A stretch of DNA of 64,000 bases from Vibrio lentus. Lineage in GTDB: Bacteria; Pseudomonadota; Gammaproteobacteria; Enterobacterales; Vibrionaceae. The position numbers and the translations under genes were made by a program. The notes under the pieces are model-generated. The model was not told the origin of the DNA, made no database searches, and was given only the letters and a program-made list of their open reading frames with translations. The stretch covers positions 310,001 through 374,000 of the forward strand of contig NZ_JAUFQE010000002.1 in assembly GCF_030409755.1 (NCBI RefSeq), written 5' to 3'. Numbering within the stretch: the first letter of the stretch is position 1; every line of letters begins with the position of its first letter. Positions 14,067-54,042 of the stretch are shown one piece after another.

Positions 14067-14083
14067 TTCAGGTCAGACCTCTT
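14067..14083. promoter_or_regulatory. FadR-like operator ahead of fadI
   Basis: TTCAGGTCAGACCTCTT contains the perfect dyad AGGTC-A-GACCT and agrees with the FadR consensus (ANCTGGTCNGACCNGNT) in its core. It ends 17 bases before the fadI ATG, overlapping where the transcript start or leader would be, which fits repression. FadR control of fadIJ is established in enteric bacteria. Confidence 0.75.
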
Positions 14084-34519: not shown

Positions 34520-36157
34520 CTAGGCCATTCTTTGCGTTGGCTTCCAGCGTGCTAGTTCCGGATCAAGCTTGATACCTTGCGAAGTCAGCAGGTTAACACG
34601 AGCCAAGTAGGCTGCGCCGTGCATTAGGTGTTTTGCTAGGTCGACTGCATTACGCTGCTGGTAATCGTCTAAGTAGCTGTCTTTCGCCCATGCGTTGAAT
34701 GCGCCAAGTGCAGGACCTGCCCATACTTGGTAATCCATTTCACGACCTTGTTCGCCGGTGTTTGACCAACGGCTAGAAAGACCCAAGTACCAACGGAAAA
34801 TCAACGCCATCTTACGCTTCGGGTTGCCTTCCGCTCGTTCGATCTGTTTAGGATCGCGCTCGTTAAAGTGAGCCACAGTCCCTGCCCAAATATCATCCAG
34901 TGTTGAACGGAAGACTTGCTTCTCAAGTTTCAGACGCTCTTCTACTGGAATCGCTTCAATTGAATCGTAGCGAGTGTAAAGTTCGTACAGTTTGTTTGCA
35001 CGCATTGGGAACAAGGTACCACGCTTAACCACTTGCAGTTTCACGCCCATTTCGAACATGTCGGCCGCCGGAGCCATAGTCACGTCAGCCATTTCAGTTG
35101 TCGATAGCAGCTTACGTGTGTGTTCGCTCGCGCCAGCCTCAACACACGCTTGGTTGATTGAACCAGTAACAATGTAAGCAGCACCCATGTTAAACGTCGC
35201 TAGAGCAGCGTCAGGCGTGCCTACGCCACCACCACAGCCAACACGCAGCGGTGTTTTGAACTGGTACTGTGCTTGGATTTGCTCTTTCAGTGCAAGAATC
35301 GTTGGTAGTAGGGTAACCAGTGGACGATTGTCGGTGTGACCACCAGAATCGGCTTCTGCAGTAATGTCATCAGCCATAGGAACCAGCTGTGCCAGTTCCA
35401 TCTGTTCTGCTGTGATTCGACCTTCATCAACCAAAGCTTGCAGCATTTTCACCGGAGCAGGTTGCATGAACTTACTTGCAACTTCAGTACGGCTTACCTT
35501 AGCAATAACCTTATTACTAATCTGAATCTCACCTTGTGCATCGCGGCTAAGGCCAGCTGCACGGTAGTGAACGATTTGCGGTGTTAAACCTAAGAAGGCA
35601 GAAGCCTCAACGGTTTTCACTTTGTGCTTCAAAAACAGCTCAACACTGCCGCGCTCTAGAGCGGGTTCGCTTGGGCTGTGAATCAGGTTAAACGCGTAAG
35701 GACCGTTTGGTAGTGCTGCTTGGATACGATTAATCGCTTGCTCAACACGAGACGGGATTAAACCCGCCGCGCCAAATGAACAAAGAATGCCAGCTTGGCC
35801 AAGCGCAATCACCAACTCTTCAGATGAAATGCCGTTTGCCATTGCGCCCGCATAGTAAGCGTATTTCACGCCATGACAGCGACGAAAATCTTCGTCGCCT
35901 AGGCTTTGTGTACCAAGAGCTGGGGCAAATGCGCTAACAGGTTGGTTGTTCGCTGAACTTGCTGAATCGCCCGATGCAATCTCAGCTTGTTGGCTTACGC
36001 CTAAGCCTTTTTCTGGGTGGTTCACGATGTAACAAGCAAGGCTTAAGTCTTTTAATATTGTCGACATTGCCGCGTTATCAAAGCGAGTTGTGCTCTCTTC
36101 GATCTGCCAAGGCCACGGAGATAGCTTTTCGTTATTGATTGTAGTTTGAGTTGTCAT
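34520..36157 (-). CDS. pfaD: PUFA synthase enoyl reductase PfaD
   Basis: The product has 545 residues, an FMN-dependent TIM-barrel protein of the nitropropane dioxygenase type. Flavin-binding glycines are visible in RVGCGGGVGTPDAALATF, and the N-terminal SLACYIVNHPEKG segment is typical of PfaD. It acts as the trans enoyl reductase of the PfaABC megasynthase. It is the last gene of the pfaABCD operon, 30 bases past pfaC, and ends at a strong bidirectional terminator. Confidence 0.95.
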   Translation of the reverse strand: MTTQTTINNEKLSPWPWQIEESTTRFDNAAMSTILKDLSLACYIVNHPEKGLGVSQQAEIASGDSASSANNQPVSAFAPALGTQSLGDEDFRRCHGVKYAYYAGAMANGISSEELVIALGQAGILCSFGAAGLIPSRVEQAINRIQAALPNGPYAFNLIHSPSEPALERGSVELFLKHKVKTVEASAFLGLTPQIVHYRAAGLSRDAQGEIQISNKVIAKVSRTEVASKFMQPAPVKMLQALVDEGRITAEQMELAQLVPMADDITAEADSGGHTDNRPLVTLLPTILALKEQIQAQYQFKTPLRVGCGGGVGTPDAALATFNMGAAYIVTGSINQACVEAGASEHTRKLLSTTEMADVTMAPAADMFEMGVKLQVVKRGTLFPMRANKLYELYTRYDSIEAIPVEERLKLEKQVFRSTLDDIWAGTVAHFNERDPKQIERAEGNPKRKMALIFRWYLGLSSRWSNTGEQGREMDYQVWAGPALGAFNAWAKDSYLDDYQQRNAVDLAKHLMHGAAYLARVNLLTSQGIKLDPELARWKPTQRMA

Positions 36158-36187
36158 AATTATTTCTTTCCTAGTCCCGTGTCAGGC

Positions 36188-39100
36188 TTATGCTTCTTCG
36201 ATACAAATTGCGATGTCTTTCACTTCGTAAATACGCAGGCCATCTTTGCTCAGGTTTGCGTCGCCAACGATGATGCGTTTGCCGTCTTCGTCTTTGATTG
36301 CAGTGATGTGTACATCCAGTGACATCTGTTTGTTCAGAGGGTTAATCTGACCACGGTATTTCCACTTCACTTCAGATTGAATTTGACCAAACTTCGGATT
36401 GCGGAAGCCAGCGCCAAGGTCTTTGTTCAGAGCGTAGGTTTGCATTAGTTCGATGATCGCTTCGACACCTAGAGAGCCTGGCATTACCGGATCTTGATGG
36501 AAGTGGAACTGGAAGAACCAATCGCTTGGGTCAATCGTACGCTCAGCGTATAGGTAACCTAGGCCATCTTTACCACCATCGCTGGTGATCTGCACCGTAT
36601 CGATAAAGTTTAAGCGACCGCCAGCCAGTTGGTAGTGCTCTTGTACTTCACCAGTAGCAGAAACAGGTGCATTGAAGTAACGCGTCGTTTTGTCTAGTAG
36701 GTTGATGTTTACATCAGGCGTGCGGTTGTTATCAACATGCCAAGGGTGAGTCACTTTACCGTTGTCCAAACCAAGTTGATCTTTCAGTGCTGCGCCCTTG
36801 AAGTAACCAAATACCGCTGTACCTTGGTAGAAAGGCACGCCGTCAGTGCTCAGTTCGAAGCTGAAGCTCTGAACGATGTTGGTGCCCATCATTACTGTTG
36901 AAAGCAGACGAGAATCGTTGGTAATCGTTTTGCCGCGCAAGTCGACGTTACGCAACATTTTACCGCTGCCATCTAGGTTGCGGAAAAACAGTTCTTCACC
37001 TGGGAAGCCCAGTGTTGTGCCCATGTAGCCTGAGATGAAGCCGTTTGGCTGCAGTGAAATCTCCATCAATACCGAGTAAGGCATTAGGGTCTGGTGGCTG
37101 TTTTCATCAAAGTACCATGCGTTTTCTGGCACTTCGTATTCTGCAATACACGATGAAGGCTTCTTGAAGTCGCCACGCTTACCATCGATTTCAACGACAC
37201 GAGTGGTTAGCTGTAGGTCGCCACACGGAGTACGTGGTGGAATCATGCCACGGTAGATAGAGAAATCAGGACCGAAACATTTCTCGATATCACCAGTCGC
37301 GAATTCGAACATATGATAAGGCGTGAATGGAACCGTATCGGGTGTGCGGTTCGGGTAATCAGGAGTTACCGGAGCTTCAACGTGTTGAAGAGGAACCACA
37401 CCTTTGTTTGGTGCAGTTTCTAGGTCTTCAATTTGAGCCATTAATGGCGCATTAGCTGAAGCCTGCTGATTAACGGCTGGTGTATGTCCCAAGTTTTCGA
37501 TAACAGGGGTCGCGACAGCTGTTTCTAAAGAAGGCAGGTAACGAGTACATTCGTCGTCTTCTTTGATCATCACCCCCAAGTTTTGGAAATCAACAATCAC
37601 TTTGCCGTTCAGCAAAATATCGATGTTGGCTTTCGCGTATGGACGAGGGCTTAGACCAATCTCAGTCACTTCCATGCGGTACGTCAGCTCTGCCGATTGT
37701 GGTAGCACTTGTCCACGACAACGTACTTGTTGAGGCGCATTCTCAAGCGGTTGGAAACGACCATTTTGAACAAGCGTATGCATGCCAAGGTGCATCATGA
37801 AGAACTGAAGCAGTTGACCACAACCTTCTGCCATCAAAGAACCAGCCATTACTGAGTCATCTTTGAAGTGACAAGGGAAGTACCAGTGCTCAGGCTCTAG
37901 CTGCTTGTGACCTTCAATCAGACCAAGTCCCCATGTGCCGCCTTGCGGTTCAACACGGCTAACCTTTTCGATCATCATGAACTTCTCTGAGCTGAAGCAT
38001 AGAGAAGGCTGGTGGCTATTGGATTGGTGAGTTGGGCCAAAACACTCTGCAATGTTGGCAGTCAGTAGATGACGCAATTCTTGGTGGTTAAACTGCGTTT
38101 TAGGGCAGTGCAACATAGGGTCGAAGCGTTGCTTAGTTGCAAGCTTACGAGCCTTGATTTCATCTTCAGTGTGAATCACACCTTTGCCATCTGCTAGCTC
38201 TTCGTCCGTGAAGAAGCCCGCACAGCCGTTATCCATTTTGAGGATCATCTTGTCGCCAACGAAACATTCGTACGAGAAGAAGAACAGCAACGTGTCGCCA
38301 TTGCGAGCAAAGTTGTTGATTGAGATATCGTAACGCAGCGTATCGCCACCACGAGGCAAGTCACCAAGGAAAGTCAGCGTACAATCAAGCAGGCGATAAA
38401 CTCGCTCGCCTTTGTTTTCAAAATCGATACCTAAGTAGCTGATCAGCATTAGATCACACTGACCAGATTCAACTGCAACAGCCCAAGGGATCTGACCATC
38501 AACAAGATACGGCGCATCAACTGGGATGTCGTATTCGGTGGTCATTGTGCTTGGCTTGTACTCGTTAACGGTCGCGTTTAGCTTGGTTACACGAGATACC
38601 AATAGGTAGTCAGTGGTTGGCAAGCGAACGCGGCGCGAGTAGCTATCGATGATTGCGTAATCAGGGCCAAATACATTGGCGATATCGCCTTCGGCGTATT
38701 CAACCAGATCATCGTAATCCCAGATACATGGTTTACGGATAGGTTTTACTGGTGCTGGTGTCGCAAGTACGTTGACTGGTGTTGACTGAACCTGAGCTGG
38801 TTGAGCTTGAACAGGCTGAGCTAATGTTTCGGCTGAGCTATCTAAACCAGACGTAATTGCGTTTAACTGTGCTTTTAATAGCGCATCAGCCATTTGCATG
38901 CCTTGGGCACGAGTGTGCAGGAATGCTTTGTGTACTTGCTGCGCCGCTTGCTGGTTTTGAGCAAAAGCTTGGTTGTGTGGTGTTACAGACGGCTGTAATG
39001 CTGCGTCCGTATTAGCGTCGATTGGAGACGTGCCATTTTTAGCGGATAGGACATGAGTCATATTGCTGTGGTTACCTGTTAGCTGACTGTGGCGAGTTGG

Positions 39101-42079
39101 CGCCAGAGTAGGGGATACTGATGTAGGAGTTTCGATGACTGGCTCTACCGCGTTCTGCGCTAATGCTTTCTTCTCTAACTCTTTTTGCACAAGAGCTGCT
39201 TGAATGCTTGCTGTCGTTGGAATCGACGCCACTCTTGCTGCTTGTTTACCAGAAGCTTTTTGCTGAATCGCAGCCAAGTTGGTCACTGGGGTTTGGGCAA
39301 TATGTTGATAGATATCACGACCACCAAGAGTCACTTGCTTAACCAATTGACGTTTAGCATCGCTCGCCAGTTCATTGCTTAAACGAACGGAAAGTGATTG
39401 AGATTCAACACCCGATTGGCTTAGTAGCAGCTGTGAACATTGTCCTTCGCTGATGTTGGCAACAATCGCATTTTTAGAGCTGACATTCGGATTTAGAGGT
39501 GCAAGGTTCAGATTGAGTAGACCGTGTAGCAGGCTTGCCATACCAGAAGCTGCAGAGCAGTGACCCACACGCTGACTCGCTTGAGTCGTCTTTGTGCTCG
39601 ATAAACTTAGAGATGAAGACTGATGTGATGAAGATTCTGGTGCATGGTTAAGTTCAAGCAGAGAAACATCGTTCGAGCTCATACCGACTTGAGTCAGTAA
39701 CTCATCAGCAACGGCGTTGTTACGCTCACTTGAACCAAAAGCCAAGGCGTTGATTCTGCCGTAAGCCGCATCTTGGTTGCTCGCTACTTGACCTTCTTCC
39801 ACAAGAACAATCGCACCTGCGCCTTCGCCCACATTCCAACTACCGTCTTGCGGTTGTCCGAATTTTGGATCAAGCGACACTGGGCTCATGCTGTTCTTCA
39901 GAATCACATGCTCTGCACTGCCGCTTAGGTCGACGGCTGCAATCACAACAGCGTCCATGGATTCTTGCGACATTAGGTTTTGTGCGACATCAATACAACG
40001 TGCAACTGACTGTTCAGCGGCTGAAATCGTAAAGGCAGGGCCGTTAAAGTCCCACAATGAAGAGATACGCGAAGCCATGATGTTGCCGATGAAACTGGTG
40101 TATTGGTTCAGCTTGGCTGCGTCCATCACACTGTCCATCGCGATGGTTTCTAGCGCTTGGTATTCGTCTTGAGTTAGTTTGATGCCCATGTTGGCAAAGC
40201 TGTCAGCCAATTGGCTATGCAGGTTTACGCGTCCACGGAATTGGTGCATCTCAAGCTCTGTTTCCATCGCAACGAGTACTGCAACCTTTTGGCCTGCTAC
40301 AAGCTTGGCATCTTTAATGGCTTCGTCTGCAACTTTCATCAGTAGCAACTGCTGAGAGATCAAACGGTCATCTTCATTTGGCGGCACTTTGAAGCGAAGG
40401 AAATCGAGATCGAATTGATCGATGTAGGCTCCGTTTGGAATGCCGGGTAAACCAAACTGATTCAGGAGTTCTGGATGTTGGTCTAAGCCTTTCCAGCGTT
40501 TCTTAGGCAAAGCAATGAAAGCATCGTTGTTGGTTTCAATCGCAGTGCTCAGTGCATTGATACTTTGCAGAGAACCGAAGTGAGACGCGAGGCCTGTAAT
40601 GCTTAAATTAGACGGTTGTAGGCTTGGAGAAGCCGACTCTAAAGTCTGGTTTACATGACGAGTGTCTGAATACGCTTCAAGCAGTAAGTGAGCGTTACAA
40701 CCACCGAAACCAAAGACAGAAACACCTGCGCAGCGCTCTGGGTTACCCGCTTTACTTGGCCAAGATTGAACCTGCGTTGGCAGAGTCTGTGAGCCAAATA
40801 AACCTTCCGGCGACGATAGTGGCTTATCCAAGTTAATACTTGGCGGAAGCACACCTTCTTTCATCGCAAAGATCATCTTCATGATCCCTGGCATACCTGC
40901 CGCAGTCAGCAAGTGGCCGAGGTTGGACTTCGCAGAGCCAATCAGTGGCGGGTTAGAACCATTCAATTTGTCAGCAAAGAAACGCTCCATTGAGGTTAAC
41001 TCAACTTTGTCACCTAATGGCGTGCCGGTTGCGTGACACTCAATCACTTCAATGCTGTCTGGTGTTAGATTTGATGCCTCGTAAGCGCGTTCAAAGGCTT
41101 GGACTTGTCCTTTGCTATTTGGGCTTAATACGAACTGGCCACGGCCATCGTTCGACAAGCCAATACCGCTGACGACTGCGTAGATGTTGTCGCCATCACG
41201 CTCCGCATCAGCTAAGCGTTTTAGGACTAAAACCCCCGCACCTTCGCCAGCAAACAGACCTTTACTATTGCTATCAAACGGAACCGACACTCCGTGGTCA
41301 GGGTAAGCGTGGAAGATCGAAAAACCCATGTTGATAAAGAATGGGTCAGCACCGGATACCGCGCCTGCCAACATCATGTCGGCTTTGCCCGTGTTCAAGT
41401 AATCACACGCTAACTTCAATGAATACACAGAGCTTGCACATGCGGCATCTAGACTCAGTTGTACGTTACCTAAACCCAATGCATCAGCCACTAACTTAGA
41501 GGCGTTATGCGCTGCAGCACCATTGATAGGGTTGAGGTCTTGCGCGGTTTCATTGGTTGGTAGCAATGAAAATTGGTCATTAGCTAATTTATCTTTCAGT
41601 GCTTTTTCGACCACCGAGTGATACATCGGCAGAAACAGGTCGTTCGAGCGTGTTGTTGGGAACGAAAGGGCACCCATGATCACGCCGGTACGCTCTAAAA
41701 CATCGGCATTTAAATCAATGCCGGCGTCGACTAAAGCCTTGCGACTGGTATCCAAAGCCCAAAGGAAACTTTGGTCAACACCGTTGAACGACTCGGCTGT
41801 TAAGCGGTAGCCATTGCTATCGAAATTGAAGTTTTCGATGTAGCCGCCTTTGTCACAGTAAAAGCGGTCTGACTCACCTTGCACGCCCTGATAGCTTTCA
41901 GGTTTAGCGCCTAACTTTTCAGCGCTTAATGTGGTTCGAGAATCTTTTTTGTTTAGCAAGTTTTGCCAAAAATCTTTTGGCGTATCAGCTTCAGGGTATT
42001 GGTTAGCAATACCGACAATCGCGATCTTATTGCACTTCACTTGCTGTTTGTTCTGAGCCTGATTCGATTGAGAACTCAT
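36188..42079 (-). CDS. pfaC: PUFA synthase PfaC: ketosynthase, chain length factor, two dehydratases
   Basis: The product has 1963 residues. Domains in order are: KS (about 18-460, active site DAACASSV, C214); a second KS-like domain (about 493-950) whose active-site position reads SAAEQSV, so the cysteine is lost and it is a chain length factor; a Q/A/P-rich linker; and two FabA-type dehydratase regions (about 1115-1510 with FPCHFKDDSVMAGSLMAEG, and about 1585-1960 with FHFHQDPVMPGSLGVEA). The second region places the cis double bonds. The frame is open to 42217, but the ATG at 42079 overlaps the pfaB stop (ATGA) behind AGGAGAGC, so it is the start. It works as part of PfaABCD. Confidence 0.95.
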   Translation of the reverse strand: MSSQSNQAQNKQQVKCNKIAIVGIANQYPEADTPKDFWQNLLNKKDSRTTLSAEKLGAKPESYQGVQGESDRFYCDKGGYIENFNFDSNGYRLTAESFNGVDQSFLWALDTSRKALVDAGIDLNADVLERTGVIMGALSFPTTRSNDLFLPMYHSVVEKALKDKLANDQFSLLPTNETAQDLNPINGAAAHNASKLVADALGLGNVQLSLDAACASSVYSLKLACDYLNTGKADMMLAGAVSGADPFFINMGFSIFHAYPDHGVSVPFDSNSKGLFAGEGAGVLVLKRLADAERDGDNIYAVVSGIGLSNDGRGQFVLSPNSKGQVQAFERAYEASNLTPDSIEVIECHATGTPLGDKVELTSMERFFADKLNGSNPPLIGSAKSNLGHLLTAAGMPGIMKMIFAMKEGVLPPSINLDKPLSSPEGLFGSQTLPTQVQSWPSKAGNPERCAGVSVFGFGGCNAHLLLEAYSDTRHVNQTLESASPSLQPSNLSITGLASHFGSLQSINALSTAIETNNDAFIALPKKRWKGLDQHPELLNQFGLPGIPNGAYIDQFDLDFLRFKVPPNEDDRLISQQLLLMKVADEAIKDAKLVAGQKVAVLVAMETELEMHQFRGRVNLHSQLADSFANMGIKLTQDEYQALETIAMDSVMDAAKLNQYTSFIGNIMASRISSLWDFNGPAFTISAAEQSVARCIDVAQNLMSQESMDAVVIAAVDLSGSAEHVILKNSMSPVSLDPKFGQPQDGSWNVGEGAGAIVLVEEGQVASNQDAAYGRINALAFGSSERNNAVADELLTQVGMSSNDVSLLELNHAPESSSHQSSSLSLSSTKTTQASQRVGHCSAASGMASLLHGLLNLNLAPLNPNVSSKNAIVANISEGQCSQLLLSQSGVESQSLSVRLSNELASDAKRQLVKQVTLGGRDIYQHIAQTPVTNLAAIQQKASGKQAARVASIPTTASIQAALVQKELEKKALAQNAVEPVIETPTSVSPTLAPTRHSQLTGNHSNMTHVLSAKNGTSPIDANTDAALQPSVTPHNQAFAQNQQAAQQVHKAFLHTRAQGMQMADALLKAQLNAITSGLDSSAETLAQPVQAQPAQVQSTPVNVLATPAPVKPIRKPCIWDYDDLVEYAEGDIANVFGPDYAIIDSYSRRVRLPTTDYLLVSRVTKLNATVNEYKPSTMTTEYDIPVDAPYLVDGQIPWAVAVESGQCDLMLISYLGIDFENKGERVYRLLDCTLTFLGDLPRGGDTLRYDISINNFARNGDTLLFFFSYECFVGDKMILKMDNGCAGFFTDEELADGKGVIHTEDEIKARKLATKQRFDPMLHCPKTQFNHQELRHLLTANIAECFGPTHQSNSHQPSLCFSSEKFMMIEKVSRVEPQGGTWGLGLIEGHKQLEPEHWYFPCHFKDDSVMAGSLMAEGCGQLLQFFMMHLGMHTLVQNGRFQPLENAPQQVRCRGQVLPQSAELTYRMEVTEIGLSPRPYAKANIDILLNGKVIVDFQNLGVMIKEDDECTRYLPSLETAVATPVIENLGHTPAVNQQASANAPLMAQIEDLETAPNKGVVPLQHVEAPVTPDYPNRTPDTVPFTPYHMFEFATGDIEKCFGPDFSIYRGMIPPRTPCGDLQLTTRVVEIDGKRGDFKKPSSCIAEYEVPENAWYFDENSHQTLMPYSVLMEISLQPNGFISGYMGTTLGFPGEELFFRNLDGSGKMLRNVDLRGKTITNDSRLLSTVMMGTNIVQSFSFELSTDGVPFYQGTAVFGYFKGAALKDQLGLDNGKVTHPWHVDNNRTPDVNINLLDKTTRYFNAPVSATGEVQEHYQLAGGRLNFIDTVQITSDGGKDGLGYLYAERTIDPSDWFFQFHFHQDPVMPGSLGVEAIIELMQTYALNKDLGAGFRNPKFGQIQSEVKWKYRGQINPLNKQMSLDVHITAIKDEDGKRIIVGDANLSKDGLRIYEVKDIAICIEEA

Positions 42080-44121
42080 ACTAGCTCTCCTTGATGATTC
42101 ACTGCGCTGCCTTGAGACACACCACTTAATTGCTTCGTGGTGATCTGTTGTTCTAGCCCTTGAATAAGAGGCTCGACAGACAGTGGAATTTGATGAGTAA
42201 TGAGCTGACCAATGCATTTGATGAGCGTGACAACATCGTCACCGCCTTTGGCATTGGAAGCGATTGTGCAGTATTGGTCGGCTACGTTGTCGCTACGATT
42301 GATCTTGTCGATCAATGTGCTGGTTTGACGATCGGCACCGACTTCTACAAACAGGCGAGCACCTTGTTGACGTGCACTCTGGATCAACGCGGTGAAATCC
42401 AGCGTTGAACAGAAAGTGTCGGCAATCGAAAGGGCGATGCTGTCGCTGTCGATATTGATTGGTGCGCCAGTCGGCAGACCTGCCGCGCTGATAAAGCGGA
42501 TACGTTTTGGCAACTCGTCGAACAGTGGTTGCGTGTAAAACTCTTGCACTTGGCTATGTTGGCTCAACGCTGGCGTAGTGTGCATTGCAGTAACACGGTT
42601 AGCGGCAATGCCACGTTTACCCAGTTTCTTGAGCAATGCACGACAGGTACTTTCACAACCTGCTAGCACGCAAGTATCACCTTGGATGATAGCGAGATAA
42701 GCGCGCGGAAACTCTGGTAGCAGCGCCTCAATCGCTTGTGCATCACTGCGAACCACAAAGCTATTCCATTGGATGTTTTCGTCGCCGTTGAGCTGCCAAT
42801 CTTGACGCACTGCGGTGAGTTCACCAGAAATAGCCGTGGTGAAGATAGGACTGGTTTGAGTCATCTCAATCAGCGCATGTGGTTTCTTCCAAACATTTAA
42901 GCTGGCCCACATTGAAGCTTCACCCTTGGAGTAGCCCAAGGCGAAATCTGGCTGCACTTTGAATTCATCACACAGCAGTTGTGTTAACAGATAACTACTG
43001 CCCACACCTGCAATGGCCAATTCACTGAGTGACATTTCTTGCGAGTCTTCAGCGTAGGTTTTTTCAGCCTGCAGCATCTCTTTCAAGTTACCTTCGCGCT
43101 CTAAACGAGCAAACAACTGTGGGAAATGGTGGTGAAATTCGCGCAACATACCGGGATAAACCGTGCCAACACCAGGGTAAACAAATGCAACGCCACCTTT
43201 GCTTTGAGGCATCGGTGAGAAACAACTGCCCGCTGGCGTTTTGTATTGGCTATTTTCAGCCATTACTTTTGGCAACGCATTTTCTAGCGCTATGATCTCT
43301 TGTATTGCAGCATCAATTGAAGCCGCTTGAATCACGATGTTCGCATTACGGCCAGCATTGTGCTGAACGCTTTGGAAGTGACTTAGGTTTGAATGCATCA
43401 AGCTGGCGATAGCAAGTTTGCTGTCTGCCGCTTCGTCAACGCATTTAAGCTCAGCTCTTAACGAGATTAACTGAGAAACCAACTCGGCTTGTTCGTTGCC
43501 TGAAACCACAAACATCAAACGCTCGCTTGATAGCAAGGGTTTTGGTTCTTGCAAACCTGTTGCTTGCGTCAATATTAGGCTGGTGGCTTTTTGGTTATCG
43601 TCACTGAAATTTAACGCAGCAACACGAGCTTTGTTCGGCTCAGTGAACCAGTAATGGTTAGGTAATGAATGGCTCGGTAATGAACGGCTCGATATCGCCT
43701 CAACTATATTCAACAACTCATCAAACTGCTGCGAAGCAGATAGGGCTGAGTATTGCTGTTGATGGCTTAGGTCTGTAGCGGGGCGGCGTGCAATATCCAG
43801 AGCAAGCTGAACGCTATCTTCGGTAGCTGAATCTACAAAACCCGCTAGATAAGCGTGTGGATGAATCTTGTTTTGAGCAGCCGTCAACGCGCTCAACATC
43901 ACTAATGATGGAGAATGAGAATCCAAACAAAGCTTAACCACATTACCTTGATTGACTGTCTCGATGGCGTGAGCAAGTGCTTGATTAAAATTGCCATCAA
44001 CCACAACAGTAACCATCTCAGGAAGCGAAGGTGATAAGTCGGCAGAAAGCTCAGCCGCGTTTGCTGGCTGAGCTAAAAGAGCGATGCGCAATGGCATCGC
44101 TTTATTAGTAGGAACAGTCAC
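42076..44121 (-). CDS. pfaB: PUFA synthase acyltransferase PfaB
   Basis: The product has 681 residues. An N-terminal region resembling a decayed KS is followed by an acyltransferase domain (about 310-620). The serine nucleophile lies in LGYSKGEASMWASL (around residue 398), preceded by FVYPGVGTVYPGM. PfaB is known to influence which product is made, EPA or DHA; the sequence alone does not tell which. The start is GTG, whose first base is the last base of the pfaA stop (TAGTG), and its stop overlaps the pfaC start, so translation of the operon is tightly coupled. Confidence 0.92.
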   Translation of the reverse strand: MTVPTNKAMPLRIALLAQPANAAELSADLSPSLPEMVTVVVDGNFNQALAHAIETVNQGNVVKLCLDSHSPSLVMLSALTAAQNKIHPHAYLAGFVDSATEDSVQLALDIARRPATDLSHQQQYSALSASQQFDELLNIVEAISSRSLPSHSLPNHYWFTEPNKARVAALNFSDDNQKATSLILTQATGLQEPKPLLSSERLMFVVSGNEQAELVSQLISLRAELKCVDEAADSKLAIASLMHSNLSHFQSVQHNAGRNANIVIQAASIDAAIQEIIALENALPKVMAENSQYKTPAGSCFSPMPQSKGGVAFVYPGVGTVYPGMLREFHHHFPQLFARLEREGNLKEMLQAEKTYAEDSQEMSLSELAIAGVGSSYLLTQLLCDEFKVQPDFALGYSKGEASMWASLNVWKKPHALIEMTQTSPIFTTAISGELTAVRQDWQLNGDENIQWNSFVVRSDAQAIEALLPEFPRAYLAIIQGDTCVLAGCESTCRALLKKLGKRGIAANRVTAMHTTPALSQHSQVQEFYTQPLFDELPKRIRFISAAGLPTGAPINIDSDSIALSIADTFCSTLDFTALIQSARQQGARLFVEVGADRQTSTLIDKINRSDNVADQYCTIASNAKGGDDVVTLIKCIGQLITHQIPLSVEPLIQGLEQQITTKQLSGVSQGSAVNHQGELV

Positions 44122-47100
44122 TATGACAATTGCTCCTTTTCTGCGTTCTTAGTCGCCTCTTTCTTTGATACTGCTGAGCTAGACTTCGGCAAAAATGCGT
44201 CGTTTAAGCTCTTGCTGATGGTGACTTTGGCACCTTTCATTACCGCACTTAAACGACCATCTTGGTGGTAAAGCGAGATATCAGCTTGCAGAGAACGAGC
44301 CGTGCTTTTTATCACGCTCAGCTCTAGCCAACCTTGGTCACCATTGTGCATCGGTGCGTAACAAACAAACTCACCGATTGCAGACGGTAGGCTTGCCGCG
44401 CCGTATTTCAATCGAGCCCATACCAGCATTGCTTGCAACAGATAATCTTCAGCAAATGGCTGACTATCGCCAAAACCTTGCTTAGGAATAAATGATCCGC
44501 AGTCGCTGTTTTCAATCTGAGGCAATTGGCACTGAGCCAGTAAGCCTAAGTCGTCAAAGCGTTCGACTGAGGTTATACCTTGCAGTCTTGGTCCGTGAAA
44601 CAGAGTGCCGTCACTGTATAGAGCTTGTGCCGTTGTTACAGGTGCTGAAGTGTTGGCTTCAAAGCGCTTTTCTGACGCTTGTTGAGCATCTTCAGACACT
44701 TGCACAGAGGCAACTTGCAACTGAGCTTGATACTGTGGTCGCCCTTGGCAACTGATCACCGCTTTTAGCTGCTCTTTTGATTTAGCATCAGAAGAAAGAA
44801 CCAGTTTTAGCTCTTGCACTTCATCAGTATCAAAAATCACACCCTTAAGCAGTTTGTAGTTGTGAACGCTAACGTTCAGCCCTAACAGTTGCTCTGCCAC
44901 TTCACGCATCCATTGGATGGCACACACTGTCGGTAACACTGGGTTACCGGCAATGCAGTGATCTTGAATGAAAGGCAATGCCTTTGGATCAAGATGACGT
45001 GTCACAGTAATGCTTGTACTCAGCGGACTCTCTGCAAGGTGCACAGACTCCGCATTAAGCTTTTTTACAGCAGCTTCCTTGTTGTCAGAACCTTGCATGC
45101 TCGTACCAACCAGCAGTTGAATGCCAGTTTCGTTCAGTAGTTGAGAGCTAAACAGCTCTGCACCCGCCTGAAGAGGAATCACGTACACACCGCGCTCTGT
45201 GAACATACGTTTCAGTGCTGCGTTGACCATGCCACCGTCCCACGGTCCCCAGTTGAAGCTCATCACTTTCGCTTGAGGGTTACGTGCAGATAGTTGTAGA
45301 GCCGCTTTGTTTAGGATCTCGTTGGACATCGAGTAATCACTTTGGCCAGTGTTTCCGTAGAAACCCGCCGCCGAAGAGAACATCGCAATCAGTTTTAGCT
45401 TGCTGCTATCAAGACCACCAAGAACCGCTTCTAGCCCGCCCACTTTCGTGCCGTAAACCATGTTCAGTTCATCAAGTGTTTTATCTTGAATGTGTTTGTC
45501 AGCCAGTACACCTGCACCGTGGATAAGACCCGTGATGCCGTCGAAATTCGCCAGTGTTTTCGCTACAGACTCATGGTTCGACACATCTAGACTTAGGTAT
45601 TCAGCGCTCGCGCCAATCTCGTTGAAAGCGGCAAGTGCTGCGTTGATTTCAAGGCTGCTCAATACAGGTTTTAGCAAGGTATCAACTTTCTTTGGCGTTG
45701 GTTTGTCACCTGTTGCTTGTAGGTGAGCAATAGCCGCAGGTTTAAGCTCTTTCTCTTGCTTGCCTTGTGCCCACTGAGGTAGCTCAGCTGAAGTAATATG
45801 CTTACTACGACCTGCAAGAATGAAGTGAGACTTACATTGCTTAGCAAGCGTCAGTGCACATTCAAACGTCACGCCTTTAGCGCCACCAGTTACGAGAACT
45901 TTGTCGCTCTTGGTGAGTTGAGCACCTGTGTTTTTGGTTTGTGCAGCACCTGGTGTTGCCGCAATCAATGTTGCACGACCAGATTCACCGTTTTCTGCAT
46001 GGCTAAGGCCGATTTCAACCGTGTTGGTATCGATATCGAACAGTTCGCCTGTGATAGCTTCAGCTAGGTGACGAGCATCAATAGAAGCGTCAGCATCCAA
46101 TGCGCGGCAGAACACGTTTGACCATTCATGGTTTAGTGTCTTAGTTAGACCAGACAGCGCGGCTTGGTTAAGTTCCGCATTCGCTAGTTGCTTAGTATCT
46201 AGGTAACCAAAGCCACCATCGATACGGCTTAGTGTGAAGAAAACACTGCGACCAGAAACGGTATTCAGCTGACCATTTAGGTGCTTCGCGAATAAGAACG
46301 CTGTGGTTAGTGAAGTTCTTGAGTCTGCATTCAAGTTAACCGCTTGCTCGTTGCTTTGTTTCGCATCAACGATAGCTTGTAAATGAATGAAGCCAGCAAT
46401 CACTTTGTTCGACGTTTTAAGGTCTGCTTCGATGTCGTTAATAACCGCAGTCACACCAGCATCATCGATGCTGTTGAGTGTGTAGCTTGCGATTTCACTG
46501 TTTAAAGGTGACGCGGCAGAAAGGGCACTACGCACTACGGCAACTTGAATGCCGTTAGCGGTCAACTTTTCTGCTAGAACACCGGCGTTGTGACCATCAT
46601 CTGTGATCACGACACAAGCGTCTTTTGAGAAACAATCGACGAGTTTATCTGCCGCTGGTAGCTTTTTTAGCGCTACCTCATTGTGTGGAGGAAGTTCCGC
46701 TGTCGCTGTTTCTGCGATAGGCGTTACTGATTCAGCTTTTGGAGTCGCTACGGGTGCAGCAGCGGATAGCTTGCTTTGCATGTATGTAACGATTTCACCA
46801 AGCGTACGACACTCAGCTAGGTCTTCAGGGTTTAGCTCTGGCAGCGTTGGTAGCTGGTCTTGAACTGTACCTAAAATCTCAACACGTTTGATTGAGTCGA
46901 TACCAAGGTCTGCTTCCATGTCCATCGCGAGGTCGAGCATTTCTGCTGGGTAACCTGTTTTGTCGGCAACCACTTCCATCATTGTTGATTGAACATGAGC
47001 AGGGTTTAGGTCGTTGCTTGCGCTTTCTACAGCGGCTGTAGCTGCTACTGTCGGAGTTGCTGCGTTAGGAGCTAACTTGCTGTTCATGTAGTCAACGATT

Positions 47101-50100
47101 TCGCCAAGAGTACGGCACTCAGCTAGGTCTTCAGGGTTTAGCTCTGGCAGTGTTGGTAGCTGGTCTTGAACCGTACCAAGGATCTCAACACGTTTGATTG
47201 AGTCGATACCAAGGTCTGCTTCCATGTCCATTGCTAGGTCTAGCATTTCTGTTGGGTAGCCCGTTTTATCAGCCACTACGCTCAGCATTGTGCTTTGAAC
47301 TTGTTCTGCGTTTAAACCGTTTGATACTGCTTGCGCTGGTGCAGATGCTTGAGCTGCTACTGGAACAGAAGCTGGAAGCTTACTGTTCATGTAGTCAACA
47401 ATTTCGCCTAGAGTGCGACATTCAGCTAAGTCTTCAGGGTTTAGCTCTGGAAGAGTCGGTAGCTCGTCTTGTACCGTACCTAGGATTTCAACACGCTTGA
47501 TTGAGTCGATACCAAGGTCAGCTTCCATGTCCATTGCTAGGTCTAGCATTTCAGTCGGGTAGCCCGTTTTCTCTGCGACTACTTCTAACATGGTTTTTTG
47601 AACGACAGCCGCATCTAGACCATTGCTAGCTGTTGCCGGAGTAACTACTGGTGCTTGTGAAGACACTGGAGCAGAAGCTGGAAGCTTGCTGTTCATGTAG
47701 GCAACGATTTCGCCAAGAGTACGACACTCAGCCAAGTCTTCAGGGTTTAGCTCTGGAAGAGTAGGCAGTTCATCTTGAACCGTACCAAGAATCTCAACAC
47801 GCTTGATTGAATCGATACCAAGGTCAGCTTCCATATCCATTTCTAGATCAAGCATTTCCGTTGGGTAACCTGTCTTCTCAGCAACCACTTCTAGCATGGT
47901 TTGTTGAACGACTTTCGCATCAAGACCGTTAGCGGCTTGAACAGGAGCGGCTGCGCTTGGCTGTGCTGCCACAGGCGCTGATGCTGGCATCTTGCTGTTC
48001 ATGTAGGTAACGATTTCACCAAGAGTACGACACTCAGCTAAATCTTCAGGGTTCAGCTCAGGTAGGTTCGGCATTTCGTCTTGAACGGTACCAAGGATCT
48101 CTACACGCTTGATTGAGTCGATACCAAGGTCTGCTTCCATGTCCATTTCTAGATCAAGCATTTCCGTTGGGTAACCCGTTTTCTCAGCGACTACTTCTAG
48201 CATCACTTTTTCAGCATCGGCTGTTTGTACTGCTACTGGTGCAGCCACAGGAGCTGGTTGTGCTTTTACTGGCACAGGCTGAGCTGCAACAGGTGCTGCT
48301 GCTTGAGCGACTACTTGTGGTGCAGGAACGGCTTTCTGGACTGGAGCTTGCTGAACTGTTGTATTTTGAACTGGCACAGCCTGTACAGGAGCTGTTTGTA
48401 CTTGAGCTACAGGCTGTTGGACGATAGCTGCTGGAGTAGTTGGAGCTTGAATCGCTGGTTGAGCATTTACTGGCGCAACGAAGGTTGGTTGTGCCGTTTG
48501 TACTGAACCTTGCGTCAGCATATTAAGTGCTGAGTTGTTGCTGTGCGCTTGCATTTCTAGGTAATGAGCGTGCGCTTTTAGCGTTTCAGCTTGGTGCTGG
48601 TGGAACATTTCCATAGAACGCTGTAGGTTCTCAGGAATTGCTACTCCTGCTGTTGCCATTTTCGCTTGCTCAGACATTAGGGTGTTGAATGTGTCACCGT
48701 ATTGCTGAGGAATCGCCAAGAATTGCTGATGTACTTCTGCTGTTTGTTGTTGAGCATTGAAGAACGATTGCAGTGAAGATTCATCAACTGTTACTTGAGC
48801 TGCTGGCTGAATAGTCGCTGGTGCAGATTGCGCCACTTGTGGCTGCTGAGCTGCTGTTACTACTTGTGCACTTGGTGCTGGAGCAGTTGACTGTTGTACA
48901 TTTGAAGCTTGAGGAGCAGCCACAGGTACTTCAACGATTTCTGTTTTAATTACTTCTTTTTCCACGATTTTCTCGACTTCAACTTTCACTTCAACAATCT
49001 CGGTCTTTTCGGTGACGTTGCCCGAAGCCAATGATTGATCCATTTTCTTACGAGTAGCAGGGCTGATGTAGTTGGTTGCATTCAGCTTGATGTTCATTGG
49101 TGATGCCTTTGCAGGTTCAGCAATGTCAGCTTGGTAAGGGTCAATGTTGTCTAATGAAACACCTGCCACGCACAGTTGAACCGCAGCTAAACGAAGCTGT
49201 TGGTCACTGTCGCCTTTAGGGCTTGGGTTGATGCTGATTGCATAAAGTTCTTCGTTCTTATCAGCCAATGTTTTTTCAACCAGCTTTTGAAGAATGTTCT
49301 TCGGACCGAACTCAACGAATACACGCGCGCCTGCTTCATACATCGCTTCAATTTGCTCGCTAAAACGAACCGATTGCAGCATGTGTTGCTTGAACGCTTT
49401 CTTAATCGCTTTCGCGTCTTTGCTGTGTAGTTTGCCCGTTGCGTTTGAGTAAAGCGGCAGCGTTGGAGCGCTAAATGAAGCTTTGTCAATTGCAGCAGCA
49501 AATGGTTTTTGAGCGTGAGCAACAAGTGGAGTGTGGAACGCGCCAGATACAGGCAGAGCGATTGCTTTGAAGCCTTGTTCTGTCAGCGCTTGTGCTGCTT
49601 GTTGAACCGTCGCAGTTGGGCCAGCAATAACCAGTTGAGTCGGAGCGTTGTAGTTGGCAATGCTCACGCCTTCGAATTGGCTGATGCAGCTTTCAACGGT
49701 TGGAAGTTTGTCTGCGTCTAAGATGACCGCAAACATAGTACCGCTGTCGCCTTGTTCAGGTGTCGCAGCCATCGCATCGCCACGAGCGAAAGCTAGCTGG
49801 TAGTAATCGTCTTGCGAGATAACACCCGATGCACATAGTGCGCTTAGCTCACCAAAGCTGTGTCCTGCGACCATGTCTGCTCTGAAGCCAGCTTGAGTCA
49901 TGATGTCGAACTGACCCATAGACACAGTACCAATCGCACTTTGCGCATTGGCCGTGTTGGTTAACACCGCTTCTTGAGCTTTGGTTGCTTCTGGTGTGAA
50001 AGTTGGAATTGGGAACAGAATTTGCGACAGAGCCGTTTTCTTGTGCTGACCAAATACTTGATCCGCTTGAGCAAGCTGTTGACGCATCTCTGGGTAGTGA

Positions 50101-51947
50101 CACGCAAGCTCGCGCCCCATGTTTAGGTATTGAGAACCTTGACCGGCAAATAGCGCTGCCACTTTACCTGCACCGTTTTCAGCAATCAGTGCTGACTCAC
50201 GATAGCTAGTACCGTTTGGCATCTGCCAATGTGCTTTGGTTTGGCTCTCAAGCATAGAAACAGCCTGAGTCAATTGCGCTTGAAGGTCTGCTTGGTCAGT
50301 GACAACTAAACCAAGGCGAGCGTGCTTAGCGTCTACTTCGCGTAGAGCGTGCTGCTCAGCAAGCGCTTCCAGTTTGAACGCAGCGTCTGCAGCTTGAGTT
50401 GAAACTTGTTTTAGCTCATTGATCAATGCTTGACGAGATTCTGCGCTGAATAACAGAGTTTGCGGTACTTGGCGCTGACGGTATTTGTCACCGCGAGCGT
50501 GCTCTGGCGTGTACTCTTCCAATACCACGTGGAAGTTAGTGCCACCAAAACCAAATGAGCTGATACCTGCACGGCGTGGTGTACCGTCGACACGTTTCAT
50601 CCAAGGACGAGTTTGTGTGTTTAGGTAGAACGGTGAGTTCTCGATATCCAACTTAGGATTCGGAGCCGATACGTTAATCGTTGGCGGCAGTACTTTGTGG
50701 TGCAGTGCTAATGCAGCTTTGATTAAACCTGCAGTACCCGCGGTTGACTTAGTGTGACCAATTTGAGATTTCACAGAGCCTAACGCAATGTGTTGCTTCT
50801 CTCCATTGTTCTCACTGAATACCGAGTTTAAGCCACCAAATTCAGCCACATCACCCGCTGCAGTACCTGTACCGTGCGCTTCTAAAAGACCAAGCGTGTG
50901 CGGTGCGAAACCAGCATCATCGTAAGCACGTTTTAGTGCTTTTGCTTGTCCTTCAGGGCGAGGTGCGTAAATACTCTTGAACTTACCGTCCGAAGAAGAA
51001 CCGACACCTTTAATCACAGAGTAGATTCTGTCGCCATCGCGCTCTGCATCTTCAAGACGCTTAAGAGCAACCATGCCGATACCTTCACCAATCATCATAC
51101 CTTTTGAATCGATATCGAAAGGTTGAATGGTTTCATTAGTAGTGAATGCTGGCGTTTTAGAGAAGCTCATGTACATGGTTGGTGAGTTATCAGTACACAC
51201 ACCACCTGTGATCATCATTTCACTGCGGCCTTCAACCAGCTCACTTAGAGCCATACGCATTGCGGCTAGAGAGCCTGCACACGCAGCATCTACTACACAG
51301 TTGATGCCACCAAGGTCAAAGCGGTTAGCAATACGACCTGAAATTACGTTACCCAATGAACCAGGGAATGAGTTCTCTTCCCAGTGGATGTATTGGTCTT
51401 GGAATTTTTTGATCAGCATTTCGCTGTCGTCGTCGCTGATACCACTGCTCTTGAAGACTTTTTTCAAAACAGGGTATTGAAGACGAGCATTTAGGCTTTG
51501 AGCGATCTTTTGACCACCACCAACACCGAGCGTGATACCGATCTTATCGCGATTGTAGCCTTCAGGCAGCTTGGCATCTTCAAGTACTTCTTTTGCAACG
51601 ATCAAAGAAAGCAGCTGTGAAGTATCAGTTAGTTCTAGGATATTTGGCGGAAGACCGAACTCCATAGGGTTGAAGTCTACTTCTGGGATGAAACCACCGC
51701 GCTTACAGTAAGACTTGTCTGGCGTAGTACGATCTGAATCGTAGTAATCTTCTGGACGCCAGTGCGTATCTGGTACTTCAGTAATCGCATCGATCTTTTC
51801 GCTGATAAGGTCCCAAAATTTATTCAGGTAGCGAGAGTTTGCAAACATGCTCGCCATACCAACGATAGCGACAGGCATATCTTTAAGGCGTTTATTCAGT
51901 CGAGAATCGTCGACTGATTCCGGTGTATTTGTCTCGGGTTGGCTCAT
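44121..51947 (-). CDS. pfaA: PUFA synthase PfaA: KS-AT-5xACP-KR-DH megasynthase
   Basis: The product has 2608 residues. It contains a KS (about 22-480; C223 in DAACAGSLAA, H358, H398), a malonyl acyltransferase (about 595-900; S697 in GHSFGE), a charged coiled linker (about 1000-1040), a Q/A/P-rich linker, five ACP repeats (about 1246-1729, each with LGIDSIKRVE), a ketoreductase (about 2010-2270, VTGGAKGVTFECAL) and a C-terminal dehydratase-like hot-dog domain (PFIQDHCIAGNPVLP, about 2326). It builds the acyl chain carried on ACPs activated by PfaE. ATG at 51947 follows GGAGAC. A FadR-like operator lies 360 bases upstream. Confidence 0.96.
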   Translation of the reverse strand: MSQPETNTPESVDDSRLNKRLKDMPVAIVGMASMFANSRYLNKFWDLISEKIDAITEVPDTHWRPEDYYDSDRTTPDKSYCKRGGFIPEVDFNPMEFGLPPNILELTDTSQLLSLIVAKEVLEDAKLPEGYNRDKIGITLGVGGGQKIAQSLNARLQYPVLKKVFKSSGISDDDSEMLIKKFQDQYIHWEENSFPGSLGNVISGRIANRFDLGGINCVVDAACAGSLAAMRMALSELVEGRSEMMITGGVCTDNSPTMYMSFSKTPAFTTNETIQPFDIDSKGMMIGEGIGMVALKRLEDAERDGDRIYSVIKGVGSSSDGKFKSIYAPRPEGQAKALKRAYDDAGFAPHTLGLLEAHGTGTAAGDVAEFGGLNSVFSENNGEKQHIALGSVKSQIGHTKSTAGTAGLIKAALALHHKVLPPTINVSAPNPKLDIENSPFYLNTQTRPWMKRVDGTPRRAGISSFGFGGTNFHVVLEEYTPEHARGDKYRQRQVPQTLLFSAESRQALINELKQVSTQAADAAFKLEALAEQHALREVDAKHARLGLVVTDQADLQAQLTQAVSMLESQTKAHWQMPNGTSYRESALIAENGAGKVAALFAGQGSQYLNMGRELACHYPEMRQQLAQADQVFGQHKKTALSQILFPIPTFTPEATKAQEAVLTNTANAQSAIGTVSMGQFDIMTQAGFRADMVAGHSFGELSALCASGVISQDDYYQLAFARGDAMAATPEQGDSGTMFAVILDADKLPTVESCISQFEGVSIANYNAPTQLVIAGPTATVQQAAQALTEQGFKAIALPVSGAFHTPLVAHAQKPFAAAIDKASFSAPTLPLYSNATGKLHSKDAKAIKKAFKQHMLQSVRFSEQIEAMYEAGARVFVEFGPKNILQKLVEKTLADKNEELYAISINPSPKGDSDQQLRLAAVQLCVAGVSLDNIDPYQADIAEPAKASPMNIKLNATNYISPATRKKMDQSLASGNVTEKTEIVEVKVEVEKIVEKEVIKTEIVEVPVAAPQASNVQQSTAPAPSAQVVTAAQQPQVAQSAPATIQPAAQVTVDESSLQSFFNAQQQTAEVHQQFLAIPQQYGDTFNTLMSEQAKMATAGVAIPENLQRSMEMFHQHQAETLKAHAHYLEMQAHSNNSALNMLTQGSVQTAQPTFVAPVNAQPAIQAPTTPAAIVQQPVAQVQTAPVQAVPVQNTTVQQAPVQKAVPAPQVVAQAAAPVAAQPVPVKAQPAPVAAPVAVQTADAEKVMLEVVAEKTGYPTEMLDLEMDMEADLGIDSIKRVEILGTVQDEMPNLPELNPEDLAECRTLGEIVTYMNSKMPASAPVAAQPSAAAPVQAANGLDAKVVQQTMLEVVAEKTGYPTEMLDLEMDMEADLGIDSIKRVEILGTVQDELPTLPELNPEDLAECRTLGEIVAYMNSKLPASAPVSSQAPVVTPATASNGLDAAVVQKTMLEVVAEKTGYPTEMLDLAMDMEADLGIDSIKRVEILGTVQDELPTLPELNPEDLAECRTLGEIVDYMNSKLPASVPVAAQASAPAQAVSNGLNAEQVQSTMLSVVADKTGYPTEMLDLAMDMEADLGIDSIKRVEILGTVQDQLPTLPELNPEDLAECRTLGEIVDYMNSKLAPNAATPTVAATAAVESASNDLNPAHVQSTMMEVVADKTGYPAEMLDLAMDMEADLGIDSIKRVEILGTVQDQLPTLPELNPEDLAECRTLGEIVTYMQSKLSAAAPVATPKAESVTPIAETATAELPPHNEVALKKLPAADKLVDCFSKDACVVITDDGHNAGVLAEKLTANGIQVAVVRSALSAASPLNSEIASYTLNSIDDAGVTAVINDIEADLKTSNKVIAGFIHLQAIVDAKQSNEQAVNLNADSRTSLTTAFLFAKHLNGQLNTVSGRSVFFTLSRIDGGFGYLDTKQLANAELNQAALSGLTKTLNHEWSNVFCRALDADASIDARHLAEAITGELFDIDTNTVEIGLSHAENGESGRATLIAATPGAAQTKNTGAQLTKSDKVLVTGGAKGVTFECALTLAKQCKSHFILAGRSKHITSAELPQWAQGKQEKELKPAAIAHLQATGDKPTPKKVDTLLKPVLSSLEINAALAAFNEIGASAEYLSLDVSNHESVAKTLANFDGITGLIHGAGVLADKHIQDKTLDELNMVYGTKVGGLEAVLGGLDSSKLKLIAMFSSAAGFYGNTGQSDYSMSNEILNKAALQLSARNPQAKVMSFNWGPWDGGMVNAALKRMFTERGVYVIPLQAGAELFSSQLLNETGIQLLVGTSMQGSDNKEAAVKKLNAESVHLAESPLSTSITVTRHLDPKALPFIQDHCIAGNPVLPTVCAIQWMREVAEQLLGLNVSVHNYKLLKGVIFDTDEVQELKLVLSSDAKSKEQLKAVISCQGRPQYQAQLQVASVQVSEDAQQASEKRFEANTSAPVTTAQALYSDGTLFHGPRLQGITSVERFDDLGLLAQCQLPQIENSDCGSFIPKQGFGDSQPFAEDYLLQAMLVWARLKYGAASLPSAIGEFVCYAPMHNGDQGWLELSVIKSTARSLQADISLYHQDGRLSAVMKGAKVTISKSLNDAFLPKSSSAVSKKEATKNAEKEQLS
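46768..48206 (-). repeat. Five tandem ACP-encoding repeats inside pfaA
   Basis: Five copies of about 300 bases each encode acyl carrier domains separated by A/P/Q-rich linkers. Each has the phosphopantetheine serine in LGIDSIKR; these codons lie near 46895, 47200, 47502, 47811 and 48118. Copies 1 to 3 share the start MLEVVAEKTGYPTEMLDL, while copies 4 and 5 read VVADKTGYP. The high identity between copies makes the region prone to recombination and to assembly error. Confidence 0.95.
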
Positions 51948-52153: not shown

Positions 52154-52304
52154 TCAAATGTTGAGGCGATGTCCATTAAAATCCTGTTCAAAGTCTGACT
52201 AAACGACAAGTCGGTATCCGCAAAGAAAACGTGTGAATTTGTTTAATGGTTGAGCAGGCTACCCGAGGTGAGTGGTCGATACAATGCTCCCAGAGGCCAC
52301 TATG

Positions 52305-52321
52305 ATCTGTTCAGACCAGAT
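52305..52321. promoter_or_regulatory. FadR-like operator between pfaA and pfaE
   Basis: ATCTGTTCAGACCAGAT matches the FadR consensus ANCTGGTCNGACCNGNT at every defined position but one (T for G at position 6). It is almost a perfect dyad. Compare the known enteric fadBA site, which has the same outer ATCTG/CAGAT arms. If the minus-strand -10 at 52283-52278 is used, the operator is centred near -42 for pfaA, similar to where FadR activates fabA. Confidence 0.65.
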
Positions 52322-52606
52322 GAATTTGGCATGGTTTTGATTTTTGTATTTTTAATTTAATTAACTTATTGATAATTAATGGGTATGGGTTGTTTTTTAG
52401 TGTTTTTACTCTATATTTCGACTTGGTGAGATCTATGTCATATTTTTGTAAGTAACATTTAATGGATTCCTCTTGTGTAAGGCTAAGTGTGATCTGTGTT
52501 TTAATTTGTTATTATTTGAAAAATTAGTTTTAAGTCCTCATATGAAGGGGGTTTCCCTCCCGTATTCTCTAGGTTCCACTTAATTCATAGCTGAGTTAAA
52601 TTTGTT

Positions 52607-52665: not shown

Positions 52666-53493
52666 ATGAAAACTCCCGTTGTTGATTTGTGGCTATGCTC
52701 TCTGAGTAACTTGAATGACCAGCCAGACAATGTATCTCAGCTCAAAAAGAGACTGACAACCGATGAGATTGCCAAAGTTGAGCGTTATCGAATGCCCTCA
52801 TCTCAGATTCAAGCTTTGTATGTACGAAATTATCTGAGAAAGGTGCTGTCTAGCTATTCTGATTTGATGCCTGAAGCGTGGCGCTTTGAATATGGTGAGA
52901 AAGGGAAGCCAAGATTAATTGAGAAACAACAAATAGAAACCGGCCTGAATTTCAATATCAGTCATAGCAAAGAACATTTGTTAATCGCAGTTTGCCAGAG
53001 AGAAGGTAAGCAAGTTCAGCTAGGTGTTGATATTGAACATGCCAGAAGCTCGACCAATATTGACTCGATCATGAAGCACTACTTTTCAGATACGGAATTG
53101 ACGGATTTACTTGAGCTCAGCAAAGAAGAACAAAGAGAGCGTTTTTTCGATCTTTGGGCGCTGAAGGAGTCGTATATCAAAGCGACAGGTAAAGGGCTAG
53201 CCACATCATTGCGAAGCTTTTCGTTCGATTTCTCCAATCTGACGGAGCAAACACTGTCACTTCACACTTCGGATTTTCAACCAAACTTGCAGGATGAAAT
53301 TAGATTGCATGGTGAAATCAGCATATACAGTGGAGTTGGGTTGGATGTTACTGAGCAAACCGATAGTTCTACAAGTTGGCAATGTTGCTTAGGGCGGCTG
53401 GATGAACAGTATCGCTTTGCGGTTACGCTTGGTGGAAATTTGCTACCGATGAAGATAGAGATGAGAACCTTTTCATCGTCTCATCTCTTTTAA
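52666..53493 (+). CDS. pfaE: 4'-phosphopantetheinyl transferase PfaE
   Basis: The product has 275 residues, of the Sfp type. Core motifs are FNISHSKEHLLIAV, the metal-binding VDIEHAR, and FFDLWALKESYIKATGKGL. It transfers phosphopantetheine from CoA to the five ACP domains of PfaA. It is divergent from pfaA with about 720 bases between, and convergent with the thioesterase gene. No strong ribosome site is seen; the start fits the family N-terminus (VDLWLCSLSNL). Confidence 0.93.
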   Translation: MKTPVVDLWLCSLSNLNDQPDNVSQLKKRLTTDEIAKVERYRMPSSQIQALYVRNYLRKVLSSYSDLMPEAWRFEYGEKGKPRLIEKQQIETGLNFNISHSKEHLLIAVCQREGKQVQLGVDIEHARSSTNIDSIMKHYFSDTELTDLLELSKEEQRERFFDLWALKESYIKATGKGLATSLRSFSFDFSNLTEQTLSLHTSDFQPNLQDEIRLHGEISIYSGVGLDVTEQTDSSTSWQCCLGRLDEQYRFAVTLGGNLLPMKIEMRTFSSSHLF

Positions 53494-54025: not shown

Positions 54026-54042
54026 TTTTGGTCAGACCTCAT
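54026..54042. promoter_or_regulatory. FadR-like operator upstream of the thioesterase gene
   Basis: TTTTGGTCAGACCTCAT has the complete FadR core TGGTC-A-GACC and the final T of the consensus; the outer arms are weaker. It is 96-112 bases ahead of the thioesterase start and about 236 ahead of dctP. Confidence 0.55.

Follow-up and report, generated by a model that had tools for sequence, protein, structure and literature searches.

The region upstream of pfaA, the first gene of the polyunsaturated fatty acid (PUFA) synthase operon, contains a 17-bp operator that is almost certainly a real site under constraint, and whose partner is probably FadR, an acyl-CoA-responsive GntR-family regulator. 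On balance, we favor a mechanism in which FadR, bound at about −39, activates pfaABCD and is released by acyl-CoA. We infer FadR binding, an activating sign and an acyl-CoA response at pfaA from (i) the operator, (ii) its conservation, (iii) its spacing to a −10-like box, and (iv) the one FadR gene of the genome. Little is understood of how marine bacteria couple the costly production of EPA/DHA to that of ordinary unsaturated fatty acids; if correct, the proposal would place the two under one acyl-CoA sensor. The features concerned lie in the window, i.e., the whole 64-kb stretch of DNA that was analyzed:

52305–52321, minus strand: FadR-like 17-bp operator, ATCTGGTCTGAACAGAT read towards pfaA (forward strand ATCTGTTCAGACCAGAT)
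44121–51947, minus strand: pfaA, first gene of the PUFA synthase operon (open frame, ATG at 51947)
34520–44121, minus strand: pfaB, pfaC and pfaD, the remaining operon (assigned by position)
52666–53493, plus strand: pfaE, divergent, with a phosphopantetheinyl transferase domain (open frame and domain)
52281–52286, minus strand: proposed −10 box of pfaA, CATTGT, 18 nt downstream of the operator
52247–52267, minus strand: conserved leader element, CTCGGGTAGCCTGCTCAACCA
52362–52374, minus strand: IHF-like site, TATCAATAAGTTA, at a fixed distance ~53 bases upstream of the operator
14067–14083, no strand assigned: FadR-like site of fadIJ, 18.3 bits, the top FadR score of the window

The N-terminal region of PfaA is 99% identical to that of V. 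splendidus, and judged by its pfaA relatives the window comes from a Vibrio near V. splendidus. PfaD domains are found at 34520–36157, at the distal end of the operon, and dehydratase-like matches lie within the frame at 36188–42217. With the pfaA ATG at 51947 on the minus strand and pfaE starting at 52666 on the plus strand, the operator does lie between the two divergent transcription units, as originally proposed.

The claim that the 17-mer departs from the FadR consensus at one position also held up: it has one mismatch to the FadR-type palindrome ATCTGGTCNGACCAGAT and is the sole match in the window at up to three mismatches (mean of shuffles, 0.12). Across the 5.9-Mb genome it is the best match and the sole place with one mismatch, the four other places listed having three; by arithmetic with equal base odds, ~0.07 places are expected genome-wide at one mismatch or fewer.

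For scoring, a symmetric FadR matrix was derived from promoters of genes that FadR is known or predicted to control, taken from up to 16 Vibrio genomes; the four genes were fadB (15 promoters), fabA (16), plsB (15) and fadI (7). The fadI start was located in six of 14 stretches (the other eight were dropped), and the window itself supplied the seventh. The fadB, fabA and plsB rows from outside the genus Vibrio and the fadE loci were left out of the matrix, and the fabA match of genome G004 included in it is a neighboring site. At 14.8 bits, the pfaA operator is outscored in the window by the separate fadIJ site alone, whose predicted existence is borne out; the fadI start, at 14101, is 17 bases past that site. 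Whichever target gene is omitted from the matrix, the pfaA operator ranks first or second in the window, and its score falls inside the Vibrio fabA range (9.8–16.8 bits, 16 promoters). The other Vibrio ranges are 14.2–19.3 bits for fadI (7/7), 9.9–18.5 for fadB (14/15) and 14.7–18.6 for plsB (14/15), with weak outliers at fadB of G003 (1.8 bits) and plsB of G013 (7.1 bits). Held-out fabA promoters score only 2.7–14.1 bits, and the matrix is thus a rough tool for activating sites; scores of at least 9.5 bits occur at about nine positions in the window. Twenty-five variants of the operator average 10.2 bits, against 2.2 bits for random changes, a comparison that is biased upward because the variants were partly found by pattern.

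The constraint on the operator is apparent from its conservation among pfaA relatives, of which 80 of 229 were kept. It occurs in 23 of the 25 Vibrio and Photobacterium pfaA loci compared (L002–L026), 371–417 bases upstream of the pfaA start (460 bases in L012). In an ungapped promoter alignment of 16 representatives, left from 25 segments once near-identical rows had been removed, no other of the 171 17-nt windows is as conserved as the 17-mer (mean majority, 0.93 versus 0.65 overall). The alignment of the pfaA–pfaE region that the original prediction had called for thus reveals strong conservation. The form found in the window, ATCTGGTCTGAACAGAT, is that of the V. splendidus group. The commonest other form, AACTGGTCTGAAGAGAT, has a weak right arm and scores 11.6 bits, such that the changes seen in the V. 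splendidus form bring the FadR score up to 14.8 bits; the P. profundum form, AACTGGTCTGAAGTGAT, scores 11.4 bits. Three further Vibrio clusters carry the window's form in two cases and a weak form (5.4 bits) in G003. In the P. indicum locus (L017) the left arm is broken (4.2 bits), and an Aliivibrio-labeled metagenome-assembled genome without a pfaR match (L038) has just a four-mismatch copy (9.4 bits). One locus, L026, differs from the other Vibrio loci: it has a full pfaR of the Shewanella type (67% identical), the operator is missing from the conserved place, and a three-mismatch copy (6.1 bits) lies 924 bases upstream. Possibly, L026 is a horizontally acquired cluster.

The geometry of the promoter resembles that of fabA. 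A NATTGT box is found in 25/25 segments (the window plus L002–L025), separated from the 17-mer by 18 nt in 23 and by 19 nt in two; its position would put the center of the operator near −39, the fabA geometry, and the pfaA transcription start would lie near 52274. Of the original prediction, the fabA-like geometry stands, while a −10 at 52283–52278 with the operator centered near −42 gives way to a better-placed −10 at 52286–52281. In fabA of E. coli K-12, 18 nt separate the FadR site AACTGATCGGACTTGTT from TATCCT; in fabA of the window's own genome, 18 nt likewise lie between the FadR site and TAATAT (the −10 as read here). A sigma-70 promoter scan of the minus strand found none with a −35. 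The fabA-like 18-nt spacing and the lack of a recognized −35 together point to a promoter arrangement that needs an activator near −39.

Two further elements flank the operator. The upstream IHF-like site matches WATCAANNNNTTR, which we take to be the IHF consensus, exactly in 17 of 25 segments and with one mismatch in most others. The leader element, downstream of the proposed −10 box, is strongly conserved across Vibrio and Photobacterium (mean majority of 0.84 over the stretch), and it is unique in the genome at zero mismatches. A known RNA element in the pfaA leader was considered and rejected, as comparison with Rfam gave no match up to E = 1. Many pfaR promoters of Shewanella also have leader-like sequence past the GATTGT box, whether or not a FadR-like site is present.

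In Shewanella, the gene order is promoter, pfaR, pfaA. We examined 55 pfaR loci (54 from Shewanella, plus L026), 54 of which have a GATTGT or GATTAT box. Sites were defined by position alone, as the 17 bases ending 17 nt before the box, with no sequence filter. By this definition, the TGGTC half-site is intact in 27 of the 55 loci, all of them Shewanella; their right arms include GAAGAG, TATCAG, TATCTG and GATCTG, and their FadR scores are 7.9–14.2 bits. The operator is absent from the conserved place in another 27 loci (26 among those bearing the box), and is thus dispensable in about half of the pfaR loci; in L062 it is damaged. Loss of FadR itself found no support as the cause of site loss: 12 of the 13 site-less pfaR genomes searched (a set that lies outside the L028 genome) still have FadR. 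A FabR-type palindrome (at most four of 16 mismatches) is found in 32/55 pfaR loci, versus 1.8% of single-letter-shuffled promoters, about 285–293 bases before the codon of PfaR residue 28 (L027–L081). Among the 27 site-bearing loci, 26 have it ending 2 bp ahead of the FadR-like site; the order is thus the reverse of that in fabA, where the FadR site comes before the FabR palindrome.

A further cluster, in G016 (stretch L238; PfaA N-terminal region 71% identical), we take to be Moritella-like from its likeness. It contains two FadR-like 17-mers head to tail, about 330 to 297 bases ahead of the pfaA start, which score 11.9 and 12.8 bits; a FabR-like palindrome, identified by eye, lies ~170 bases further upstream. 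G020 has a GATTGT box without a FadR-like site, and no FadR-like site was seen in the G018 stretch, which contains masked bases.

The mechanism that we favor runs as follows. FadR would bind the 17-mer, centered near −39 on a pfaA promoter without a recognizable −35, and would aid RNA polymerase in transcribing pfaABCD, as at fabA. Imported fatty acids would cause long-chain acyl-CoA to build up, and FadR would be released; fadIJ would then be derepressed, and fabA and pfa would lose their activator. Omega-3 synthesis would, as this suggests, be lowered when external fatty acids are available. The protein called for is encoded in the genome: there is one FadR_C gene, and residues 1–75 of its FadR are identical to those of the two best-matching solved FadR chains, 5dv5 and 4p96.

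The main counter-evidence to FadR comes from P. profundum SS9, where, as Allemann and Allen (J Bacteriol 2020) reportedly found, pfa expression drops when monounsaturated fatty acids are supplied from outside, through PfaF bound to the pfaA promoter and with no need for FadR or FabR. That system likewise acts on pfaA and responds to fatty acids. Also counted against FadR are the weak right arm of the common form, the roughly nine window positions that reach 9.5 bits, the broken or weak sites in L017 and G003, the lack of the site in half of the pfaR loci even though nearly all such genomes searched keep FadR, and the unchanged DHA yield of an E. coli fadR deletion with plasmid-borne pfa genes (PMC5992819). 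One rival reading is that the 17-mer, while real, is owned by a different regulator whose half-site resembles that of FadR, with PfaF the prime candidate; FadR would then not be the physiological partner here. The right arm GAAGAG, which is off consensus, is common to many Vibrio, Photobacterium and Shewanella sites, and constraint by FadR alone need not keep it. However, the right arms vary (GAAGAG, AACAG, TATCAG, TATCTG, GATCTG) within the tolerance of FadR, while TGGTC and the palindromic A and G are kept. In addition, the search of a P. profundum genome gave weak fragments besides one full FadR_C gene; with a single full FadR_C protein there, as in this genome, a paralogue of the FadR_C family is excluded as PfaF in P. 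profundum. The leader element at 52247–52267 is, speculatively, an alternative PfaF site; a search for PfaF through a second genomic copy of the element gave a single other place, with three mismatches, and located no PfaF. Taken together, we regard ownership of the 17-mer by such a regulator as unlikely, though worth keeping in mind.

FadR may, alternatively, bind the 17-mer and repress pfaABCD, so that pfa would be induced together with the fad genes. The sign of regulation is unreadable from a site alone, and most of the matrix targets (fadB, plsB and fadI) are not of the activated kind. Yet the spacing equals that of activated fabA, no −35 is recognizable, and exogenous fatty acids are said to lower pfa expression in P. 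profundum; repression is hence improbable. Least credible of all is that the 17-mer is a chance match, or that it serves pfaE rather than pfaA. Looser matches are indeed common (~200 in the genome at up to three mismatches of a related pattern), but both the sequence and the spacing of the 17-mer are conserved, and a chance match was rejected on these grounds. As for pfaE, its start is 345 bases from the 17-mer, and the Shewanella site stays with pfaR–pfaA. The upstream neighbor in L036 is a long minus-strand frame and not pfaE, on which basis service to pfaE was rejected.

Other local regulators were also considered. PfaR has been proposed as a regulator of the Shewanella and Colwellia pfa clusters (PMC4744452). 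It would act on the same operon, but pfaR gave no match in this genome at E values up to 1, and none in the P. profundum genome searched; PfaR was accordingly rejected as the local regulator of pfaABCD here. A search of the window and the L002–L025 leaders for pfaR remnants gave a sole, weak match, in L018 (E = 0.0007, PfaR residues 242–288), corresponding to the C-terminal 47 residues of PfaR; the L018 pfaA leader perhaps holds a remnant of a lost pfaR. The window itself scored −1.3 bits, which is not significant. A FabR operator at the window's pfaA promoter was rejected as well, the best candidate there having six of 16 mismatches and lying far upstream.

FadR is an established activator of fabA in V. 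cholerae (PMC5733061). The fabA genes of E. coli, V. cholerae and S. oneidensis are FadR-activated (PMC5733061; PMC4273635), and the pfaA promoter is alike in having a FadR-type 17-bp site 18 nt before the proposed −10. It differs in that the target is the PUFA synthase operon, that FadR binding is predicted, and that the FabR palindrome is missing from the window's pfaA promoter. In E. coli with plasmid-borne pfa genes, deletion of fadR leaves DHA yield unchanged, under a plasmid promoter that may not be the native one (PMC5992819). For six Shewanella species, Leyn et al. predicted that FabR controls pfaRABCD, and they give fadIJ and fadL as the shared FadR targets that Shewanellaceae have kept (PMC5343134). 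Their prediction concerns the same operon and promoter region, and likewise assigns an unsaturated fatty acid regulator to PUFA synthesis, but the paper names FabR alone and appears to make no mention of the FadR-like site 2 bp downstream of the FabR palindrome. Among the open-access matches listed, none describes FadR acting at a pfa promoter. Control of the Shewanella pfaRABCD operon by FabR has thus been predicted in print before; the pfa operator is, in silico, a putative addition to the FadR regulon with an unusual target.

We put forward a broader reading tentatively, as a realistic possibility that we hold with less than even confidence. The pfa operons of Shewanella, Vibrio, Photobacterium and the Moritella-like cluster may carry a fabA-like unit, with FadR as activator and, where the palindrome is kept (Shewanella, Moritella-like), FabR as repressor. 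Mono- and polyunsaturated synthesis would be jointly lowered by acyl-CoA; in the P. profundum group, PfaF would have taken over later. FadR control of pfa would, if true, explain a decrease in pfa expression upon supply of exogenous fatty acids in species that do not belong to the P. profundum group, and would make omega-3 output adjustable via fadR dosage and acyl-CoA level.

The third-best match to the FadR matrix in the window, TTTTGGTCAGACCTCAT at 54026–54042 (12.2 bits), stands ~235 bases before a DctP/DctQ/DctM transporter operon; this site could belong to another GntR regulator.
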